Below, one piece after another: positions 19,761-23,200 of a DNA stretch of 64,000 bases (positions are counted from its first letter, which is position 1; each line of letters begins with the position of its first letter). A program made the translations under genes and the position numbers. The stretch comes from Haloarcula pelagica (lineage in GTDB: Archaea; Halobacteriota; Halobacteria; Halobacteriales; Haloarculaceae). The stretch covers positions 434,001 through 498,000 of the forward strand of contig NZ_CP126161.1 of NCBI RefSeq assembly GCF_030127105.1. Direction: 5' to 3'. The notes beneath the pieces are model-generated. The model made no database searches, had not been told where the DNA came from, and was given only the letters and a program-made list of their open reading frames with translations.

Positions 19761-20252
19761 ACTAGGACCATGCCGTTCTGCCACAAATACTTCCTGGCTG
19801 TCGCCCGAGAGATCGGTGCGTCAACCGGCCCAGAGACGGGCCACAGCGCGGTCGCTCCCGACCCCGACGACACCGGCCGCGTGATCGCCCCCGGTGGGAC
19901 AGATCGGTAATCTCCAGTCGAAACCCCCGTTCGTTTCCACTGGATTTCCCCGGCCCGTCTCGTGGTTGGGTGGGGCCCGGTTTCACTTTCACTGTGGTCT
20001 GGTCAGTATTAAGAAGCGACCGACGTTGCTAGTGTTCGTACACGCCGGCATCGCGACGCCGCGCCGTGGCACTGCCTGACGACCACCGTAGTGACGACTG
20101 CGAATAGCTACGGAGTCCGACAGAATCCGCAGACAGAAGGGTTATACGACATCCATGAGTACAGATGTGCCGCCAGAAATGACAGGAACTGGGTCAGCCG
20201 TAGATCGGGGTATCGACCGACAGACGACCGCTGTCGGGGAGACGATGGACAG
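19761..20252. other. Intergenic region upstream of nrdJ
   Basis: 492 nt with no convincing gene. It holds the origin-recognition-box-like palindrome at 19913-19944, an AT-rich patch cagtattaagaag near 20005-20018, and a TATA-like gggttatacg near 20134-20143. The latter may serve nrdJ through a leader of about 90 nt. The large open frame beginning at 20091 upstream of the nrdJ ATG does not resemble ribonucleotide reductases. Confidence 0.6.
19913..19944. promoter_or_regulatory. Origin-recognition-box-like inverted repeat
   Basis: Two 12-nt arms, TCCAGTCGAAAC (19913-19924) and GTTTCCACTGGA (19933-19944), are inverted with one mismatch around 8 nt. On the minus strand the second arm reads TCCAGTGGAAAC followed by GAAC and a run of five G, which fits my recollection of haloarchaeal Orc1/Cdc6 binding boxes with their G-string. 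No orc1/cdc6 gene is in this window and I see no extended AT-rich unwinding element. Confidence 0.5.
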
Positions 20253-23200
20253 ATGAGCGACGCCGACCTCTCCGCCGACGAGATTTCGCTGCCGATCAAG
20301 CGCACCGAGGGAGACACGCTCGCCGATCGGCTCACCGACAACGCCTATCACAACATCCTGCCGGCTCGCTATCTCCGGAAGGACGCCGACGGCGACCTCG
20401 TCGAGCAACAGGAGGACCTGTTCGAACGGGTCGCCAAGAACATCGCACTGGCCGAGGCGGTGTTCGAGGCCCGCAAGCAAGACATCGACGTGACGGTGAC
20501 GCCGGACCAGCTCAAGCCCGACCACCCCCGTCGCGACGAGCTCGCCGAAGAGGTCTTCGGGAAAGGGACGAGCGTCGACGACGACACGGAAACCGAACTC
20601 TCCGAATACAACGTCAACAAGTTCGCCTACGACACCGTCGTCCCGGACCTCCCCGAGCCGGTCCGCGAACACGTCGAGGAGACGGCCGCGGAGTTCCAGG
20701 ACTCGATGGAACGGCTCTCCTTTATGCCGAATTCGCCGACGCTGATGAACGCCGGCGACGAACTCCAGCAGCTCTCTGCCTGTTTCGTCGACTCGCCCGA
20801 AGACGATATCGACGACATCCACCAGACGGCCAAGGAGGCCGCCCAGGTGTTCCAGTCCGGTGGCGGGATGGGCTATGCGTTCTGGCGCCTGCGCCCGTAC
20901 GGCGACCAGGTCGGCTCGACGGGCGGGATCGCCTCCGGCCCGATCACGTTCATGCGGACCTACGACCAGATGTGTGAGACCATCGCCCAGGGTGGCGCCC
21001 GCCGCGGCGCCCAGATGGGCGTCATGCGCGTCTCACACCCCGATGTCATCCAGTTCATCCACGCCAAGAACAAGGACGTTTCACTCGCACACACCCTGCG
21101 GCTCAACGACCCCGACGACTTCACTCACAACTCCTTCGCCGACGCCTTAGAGGAGGCCCGGGACCTCATCGACGAGGACGGCAAGGTTCCAAAGCACCTC
21201 CGGAACGCCGTCGAAGGCCACCTCTCGAATTTCAACATCTCCGTCGGGATCACCGACGCCTTCATGGACGCACTGAAAGCCGGTGAGGAGTTCACGTTCA
21301 CCAACCCCCGGACGGACGAGCCCCACGTCGCCACCGAGCAGACCGAAGAGCTGTACGAGATGTTCGACCTCGGCGAGTACGTCGAGGCCGGCGAGATCCT
21401 CTCTGTGCCCGCCGACAAACTGTGGGAGCGGATCGTCGAGGGCGCCCACGAGAACGGCGAACCCGGCGTCATCTATCTCGAACGGGTCAACAAACAGCAC
21501 AGCTTCGACGTGGACGAACATCCGGATCACCGCATCCTGGCCACGAATCCCTGCGGCGAGCAGCCCCTCGAAGAGTACGAAGCGTGCAACCTCGGTCACA
21601 TCAACCTCTCGACGCTGGCCGCCGAGGACGCCCCGGACTGGCGAGTCTGGGAGGCCGCCCACGCCGACGAGTACGACACCGAGGCCGAGGCCGTCGAAGC
21701 CTTCCTCGAAGACGCGATCGACTGGGCGGAGTTCGACCGCCGCATCGAGATGGGCACCCGCTTCCTAGAGAACGTCGTCACCATGTCGGACTTCCCGGTC
21801 GACGAGATCGAGCGGAAAGTCCGGGAGATGCGCAAGATCGGGCTGGGCATCATGGGCCTGGCACAGCTGTACATCCAGCTCGGCATGCGGTACGGCTCGG
21901 AGACCTCGAACGAGGTCGCCAGCCAGCTGATGACCCACATCAACCACCACTCCAAGCGGACCTCCCACGAACTCGCCGAAGACCGGGGGTCCTTCGAGGA
22001 GTGGGACAGCTCCAAGTTCGCCGACCCGACCGAGTACGCCGAGTGGTTCGAACACCACACCGGCGAGGACGCCGAGGAGTGGGCAGAGGGCTACCCGATC
22101 CGGAACCACAACACGACGACCATCGCCCCGACCGGGACGACCTCGATGATCGGCAACACCACAGGCGGCTGTGAGCCGATCTACAACGTCGCCTACTACA
22201 AGAACGTCTCCGGCGACGTGCAGGGTGACGAGATGCTCGTCGAGTTCGACGACTACTTCCTCCGGGCGCTGGAGGAGAACGACCTCGACGTTGAAGCGGT
22301 CAAACAGGAGGCCCAGGAACAGATGGCCACGAACGAGTTCGACGGTATCGACGGGCTCTCGACGGTCCCCGACGCGATCGGCGAGCTGTTCGTCACGACC
22401 GGCGACCTGCCCGCGAAGGGCCACGCCGGCATCCAGGTCGCCTGTCAGCAGGGCGTCGACTCGGCCATCTCGAAGACGGTCAACGCGCCCAACGACTCCA
22501 CCGTGGCGGACGCCGCCGAGGTGTTCGAGTACATCTACGACCACGGCGGGAAGGGCGTCACCTACTACCGGGACGGTACCCGGTCCAAGCAGGTCCTGAC
22601 CACGCGCGCCCAGAACACCGAGTTCGCCGACATGGACGCCGAGGAGATCGTCGCCCAGATCGAAGAGGTCTTCGGCGGCATCGAGGGCTTCCTCGACGAC
22701 GAGGCGGTCCAGGCGGCCATCGACGACTCCGTCGAGTCGCTGCTTGAGACCGCCGACGGCGAGGGCGAGTTCGCCAAGAAGCGTTCGCGGCCGGACGTGC
22801 TCCACGGCGTCACCCAGCGCATCGACACCGGCTACGGGAAGCTGTACGTCAATATCAACGAGGACCCCGAGGCCGAGCGGCCGTTCGAACTGTTCGCCAA
22901 CATCGGCAACTCCGGCGGGTTCACCGCCTCCTTCACCGAGGCCCTGGCGAAGACCATCTCGACGGCGCTGCGTTCGGGCGTGGACCCGCGCGAGATCGCC
23001 GACGAACTCCAGGGCATCCGCTCGCCGAAGGTCGCCTGGGACAAAGGCGAACAGATCCAGTCGATCCCCGACGCCATCGGTACCGCCCTCCGGCGGTACC
23101 TCGACGGCGAGGTCGACAAGGCCTACCCGCAGCAGGCCACGCTCGAAGAGACCGCAGAAGACGAGGACGATCCGGAACAGCCGACCGCCGACGCCGCCAC

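Follow-up and report, generated by a model that had tools for sequence, protein, structure and literature searches.

Does a palindrome upstream of nrdJ in Haloarcula pelagica mark a site for the replication initiator, and if so, what might such a site do at a ribonucleotide reductase gene? To our knowledge, how archaea coordinate dNTP production with replication is an open question. Archaeal proteins of the Orc1/Cdc6 family are known to bind origins, and one in Sulfolobales to regulate the damage response; if such a protein acted on nrdJ, archaeal dNTP supply would be coupled to replication initiation, in parallel to the control of bacterial nrd genes by DnaA. A preliminary description of this DNA had likened the palindrome to an origin recognition box (ORB), and we followed up this likeness in the 64-kb stretch of DNA analyzed here (the window), in the rest of the genome, and in haloarchaeal relatives. 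We found no earlier publication of an ORB-like box at nrdJ in the literature searched, which excludes most subscription journals.

The palindrome, read directly from the sequence, occupies positions 19913-19944 and consists of TCCAGTCGAAAC (19913-19924), an 8-nt spacer CCCCGTTC (19925-19932), and GTTTCCACTGGA (19933-19944), reading TCCAGTGGAAACGAACGGGGG on the minus strand. Its arms pair at 11 of 12 positions with a single C/C mismatch, and there is an adjoining C5 run at 19924-19928 (G5 on the minus strand), so that the near-perfect inverted arms and adjoining G5 run of the preliminary description are borne out. When both strands of the window were scanned, TCCASTSGAAAC had two perfect matches, which are the two palindrome arms. 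On the minus strand, one arm and the G-run make up an ORB-like box (Table 1) with its dyad side toward the nrdJ promoter and its G-run pointing away. The nrdJ start codon lies 309 bp downstream of the palindrome end, and the closest named relatives of its product belong to Haloarcula (86% protein identity). The 32-bp dyad, with up to 3 mismatches allowed, is unique in the 4.46-Mb genome. In 57 genomes from the window's family there are 10 such sites (none for the reversed-pattern control), of which eight precede nrdJ by 300-370 bp and one stands immediately beside orc1.

Table 1. Features upstream of nrdJ and the gene itself, in window coordinates
Feature	Coordinates	Strand	Remarks
Inverted second half-site TCCAGTCGAAAC	19913..19924	+	No G-run of its own; completes the 32-bp palindrome
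ORB-like box ATCCAGTGGAAACGAACGGGGGTTT	19921..19945	-	Dyad core TCCAGTGGAAAC, 4-nt spacer (3 nt in the canonical ORB), G5 run
Box B TTTCACTTTCACTGTGGTCT	19981..20000	+	Conserved; immediately precedes the presumed TATA box in the distal promoter of nrdJ
TATA-like element CAGTATTAAGAAG	20004..20016	+	Presumed distal nrdJ promoter, predicted from alignment
Second TATA-like element GGTTATACGA	20140..20149	+	Possible proximal promoter, predicted from alignments
Upstream ORF MTGTGSAVDRGIDRQTTAVGETMDR	20179..20256	+	Conserved, 25 codons; its stop codon and the start codon of nrdJ overlap in ATGA
nrdJ, adenosylcobalamin-dependent (class II) ribonucleotide reductase, 1043 aa	20253..23384	+	TIGR02504, 727 bits (cut-off 400)

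How closely the box resembles an ORB depends on which part is considered. Like the ORBs of haloarchaeal oriC1, it combines the dyad TCCASYNGAAAC with a G-run, arranged in that order, its minus-strand core TCCAGTGGAAAC conforms to TCCA-SYN-GAAAC, and it is recovered by a matrix built from origin sites only. In the sampled genomes the oriC1 ORBs have a fixed form (TTCCASYNGAAAC-3 nt-GGGGT, with a second G-string after it in most cases), whereas the nrdJ box in the window's family mostly has a 4-nt spacer followed by GGGGGTTT. In the window itself the G-run begins 4 nt after GAAAC rather than 3 and lacks the T, and GGGGG is followed by TTTCG in place of the extended halophile-specific G-string, a feature that is essential at oriC1 of H. 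hispanica (PMC3936714). By strict ORB criteria the site is therefore weak, because its G-run is shifted by one base and the second G-string is missing. It differs from an oriC1 ORB also in standing singly, far from orc genes, with no AT-rich element, and in being tied to a promoter. Under the oriC1-only matrix it scores 14.2 of 35.3.

With up to 3 mismatches allowed, the strict oriC1-type pattern yields 53 genomic matches and its reversed control 14; the nrdJ site belongs to those with 3 mismatches. Score alone therefore does not single out this site; its shape and conservation do. It ranked as the best ORB of the genome only under a pattern that carried the shifted G-run, a ranking that the strict pattern contradicts. 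The nrdJ-type motif TCCANTNGAAANNNNNGGGGGTT has no other match in the genome at 0-1 mismatch. An abundance of equal or better matches had been named beforehand as grounds for abandoning the site, and with about 50 equal or better strict matches this objection is partly justified, although conservation still sets the site apart.

To gauge this conservation, an iterated 44-bp matrix, trained on the nrdJ sites themselves, was run over 80 named nrdJ loci. It placed the box at -319 to -406 from nrdJ in Haloarcula, Halomicrobium, Halosimplex, Halapricum, Halovenus, Salinibaculum, Halorientalis, and Natronomonas, and at -288 to -291 in Halorubrum; real sites scored up to 54.8, and the top score among 468 Markov-shuffled regions was 7.6. 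Because that matrix had been trained on the sites it detects, we built an independent one from 115 distinct ORBs taken only from the oriC1 loci of 60 genomes. Applied to the sequence upstream of nrdJ in 101 genomes, which represent 11 families (working labels f1 to f11), and compared with 200 shuffles at p<=0.05, it beat the shuffles in 19/21 genomes of f1 (the window's family), 14/15 of f2, 10/13 of f3, 8/14 of f9, and 2/3 of f7, counts that are not independent since genomes within a family are related, so that the number of families is the better measure. None of the 35 genomes in f4, f5, f6, f8, f10, and f11 did so. Family f5 appears to include Natrinema and f11 Halorussus, f7 probably includes Salinarchaeum, and f2 appears from its matching sites to include Halorubrum. 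A same-strand ORB-like box lies upstream of nrdJ in most sampled genomes of four haloarchaeal families, two genomes of a fifth have a canonical ORB on the opposite strand, and none was found in Natrialbaceae or the other families sampled. Around the 80 nrdJ loci, 15 matrix matches scoring at least 10 fell in the stretch upstream of nrdJ and 2 in 982 kb of flanking sequence, an enrichment of about 280-fold.

The form of the box varies among these lineages. Its dyad-to-G-run spacing is the canonical 3 nt in f9 (e.g., TCCAGTGGAACCGAAGGGGG and ATCCACTCGAACGAAAGGGGT), in f7, in much of f2, and in part of f3. In f7, two genomes have canonical ORBs (TCCAGTCGAAGCGAAGGGGG) at about -403 and -414, here on the plus strand; with its different position and strand, the f7 site looks like an independent occurrence. 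Halorubrum nrdJ boxes have diverged (TTCCCACCGGAACAGAAGGGGGG, with the dyad drifted to TTCCCACCGGAAC), while the oriC1 ORBs of the same genomes are unchanged, and we saw no covariation of the nrdJ box with lineage-specific oriC1 ORBs. Halomicrobium, Halosimplex, Salinibaculum, and Halovenus retain the second inverted arm, which in several Haloarcula is degenerate; this arm is an elaboration within part of the window's family.

The position of the box is tied to the promoter. Box B (consensus ACTTTCACTCCGGTCT) is unusually conserved in several haloarchaeal families, with variants in Natrialbaceae, which themselves have no ORB-like box. In 48 of the 55 loci of f1, f2, and f3 that have Box B, the end of the G-run (a C-run on the plus strand) lies 54-58 bp before it, whereas the distance from Box B to the nrdJ ATG ranges from -217 to -292, a variation of 75 bp. 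Constant spacing to the promoter rather than to the gene is the hallmark of a site for a transcription factor, and points to transcription control and not to an origin. The upstream neighbors are trpE and trpG, both named from sequence, and an ORF for a 62-residue membrane protein on the other strand; the box is kept in loci without the trp neighbors (L015-L017, L019, L020, and L022) and hence goes with nrdJ. The preliminary description had held that absence of the site upstream of orthologous nrdJ genes would tell against it, and with its recurrence in several families at a fixed promoter spacing this condition does not refute it. The box is almost certainly a conserved cis-regulatory element of nrdJ, and as an initiator-type box at a fixed distance from a ribonucleotide reductase promoter it offers a concrete, mutable site for testing initiator-coupled dNTP synthesis in tractable species such as Haloarcula hispanica and Halobacterium salinarum.

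Which protein reads this element is less certain. We consider it somewhat more likely than not that the box is bound by a protein of the Orc1 family, and we would give similar credence to the fuller proposal that it is a solitary ORB-like site of the nrdJ promoter, at which Orc1/Cdc6 binds at a fixed spacing and modulates transcription. The sequence data are best read as a solitary ORB through which nrdJ is regulated by Orc1/Cdc6 or by a factor whose specificity is almost identical. That the oriC1 initiator or a dedicated paralogue doubles as a ribonucleotide reductase regulator through a promoter-phased solitary ORB in much of the haloarchaea is about an even call. The suggestion that a solitary Orc1 site couples dNTP synthesis to replication remains the best-supported one, as ORB-like boxes recur before nrdJ at a fixed promoter spacing, with the qualification that the box in the window departs from the canonical ORB by its one-base-longer spacer and missing extended G-string. 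In form, the nrdJ box resembles either an ORB left free to drift, as would be expected of a regulatory site with no helicase to load, or the target of a factor with a very similar specificity.

Under this proposal, Orc1/Cdc6 would bind the box upstream of the nrdJ core promoter, most likely as the oriC1 initiator and otherwise as a paralogue, and would modulate nrdJ transcription when bound. Activation or co-activation seems more likely than a block, because the box stands well clear of the TATA box, upstream and without overlap. The synthesis of dNTPs may thereby follow initiator activity and replication, which would time it within the cell cycle. The first candidate is the oriC1 initiator (P0002, NF001625). 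The second is another Orc1/Cdc6 paralogue (NF001626; L103:3909-5045, minus strand), which is found at 66-85% identity in 104 of the 106 genomes of the order; no ORB lies near its gene in this genome, which is reminiscent of the non-initiator Orc1-2 of Saccharolobus (PMC9738581). Since the oriC1-type orc1 (55/57 genomes of the family and 30/30 in other families) and the second paralogue are both nearly universal, the presence of the box does not track either candidate, and a co-occurrence test is uninformative. In synchronized Halobacterium salinarum, 87 transcripts are cell-cycle-regulated; they include one cdc6 gene and a ribonucleoside-diphosphate reductase (OE4345R), whose cluster (cluster 1) peaks 1 h after release from a replication block (PMC1906763). 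This timing would agree with the proposal if OE4345R is the orthologue of nrdJ.

Known systems offer partial parallels. In E. coli, DnaA regulates nrdAB (PMC8203912), and the proposed logic there and here would be shared: in both cases a site for the replication initiator would stand before a gene for ribonucleotide reductase. The two cases differ in that the DNA-binding domains of the initiators are unrelated, the E. coli enzyme is class I and NrdJ class II, and the promoter here is archaeal. Among archaea, Orc1-2 is a transcription regulator in Saccharolobus (PMC9738581), an Orc1-family protein that acts in the Sulfolobales DNA damage response. That system differs from nrdJ in its motif (the ANTTTC element) and lineage, and no ribonucleotide reductase target is mentioned for it (PMC9738581). 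The ACTTTC of Box B fits ANTTTC, yet the motif is too short to carry weight.

A possible but rather doubtful alternative to control by Orc1/Cdc6 is that a factor dedicated to nrdJ binds the dyad as a dimer on inverted half-sites 20 bp apart, its likeness to an ORB being a matter of convergence. In its favor are the paired inverted half-sites of some members of the window's family, the constant departure of f1 from ORB spacing, the divergence of the Halorubrum box beside unchanged oriC1 ORBs, and the lack of a second near-exact nrdJ-type motif in the genome. Convergence would, however, have to account for both ORB parts in their proper order, with canonical spacing in f9, f2, and f7, and in Halorientalis and Natronomonas it is the ORB arm that is kept while the second arm is degenerate. 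NrdR, the known ribonucleotide reductase repressor, is excluded as that factor; its box resembles the nrdJ motif in being a cis-element for reductase-specific control but differs from it in being AT-rich. The nrdR gene (TIGR00244) has no match in this genome or in four others of the genus, and 16 of the 106 genomes of the order have one. The cell-cycle regulator CdrS is an unlikely candidate; nrdJ is not among the ChIP targets listed in the consulted passages of its report, which gives the motif as a figure only.

It is improbable that the site is a dormant or relic origin, or a site for initiator titration comparable to datA or to the ORB-rich oriC2D of H. hispanica, with its placement at nrdJ incidental. 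The sequence is ORB-like, this genome has other solitary ORBs, and H. hispanica has ORB clusters without origin activity (PMC3936714). An origin is recognized by two inverted ORBs flanking an AT-rich element beside orc1/cdc6, and the nrdJ site has none of this arrangement: it is a single box with no inverted canonical partner, the oriC1-only matrix finds it as the sole match in the 64-kb window and hence no second canonical ORB there, local GC is 0.53-0.65, and no orc1/cdc6 gene was seen nearby, the oriC1/orc1 locus being 1.38 Mb away. The preliminary description was right that an orc1/cdc6 gene and a long AT-rich element are missing; its suggestion of a relic or edge of an origin is not supported, given these findings, the constant distance to the nrdJ promoter across several families, and the retention of the box where the trp neighbors are absent.

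An RNA hairpin, terminator, or riboswitch-like element is very unlikely, for although the palindrome could by inspection fold on one strand, it has no Rfam match, lies upstream of the presumed TATA box, and shows no covariation (pairing equals that of shuffled controls, with 1 compensatory cell). A chance palindrome, as one of many 3-mismatch matches to the strict pattern, is equally remote given the position, strand, and promoter spacing conserved across families and the local enrichment noted above.

Several further observations concern nrdJ and other ORBs of these genomes. Across Haloarculaceae, a basic upstream ORF of 21-26 codons (MTG...RGIDRQTAAVGRR) ends at or overlaps the nrdJ start codon, and similar short ORFs occur in some Natrialbaceae; it may encode a leader peptide or serve translational coupling. 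In many relatives (G003, G021, G025, G029, and others) the nrdJ reading frame is 1400-2760 codons long and the match is interrupted at a few recurring positions, a pattern typical of inteins. An extra ORB just upstream of the orc1 start in L264-L274 and in many of L116-L145 (e.g., GTCTCCACCTGAAACGGAGGGGTTCACATGGACGA) suggests autoregulation of the initiator gene. In this genome, an inverted ORB-like pair (G000:C1:1667096-1667224, L113) occupies a gap between convergent genes about 100 bp beyond radA on its 3' side, away from any orc gene, and is possibly a titration site or an unrecognized origin. Finally, solitary near-perfect and perfect ORBs occur at G000:C1:1932729 (L114) and C1:1920964 (L293), one of the two flanked by a uracil phosphoribosyltransferase-like gene and a gene convergent with it, and the other past the 3' end of a phytoene-desaturase-like gene.
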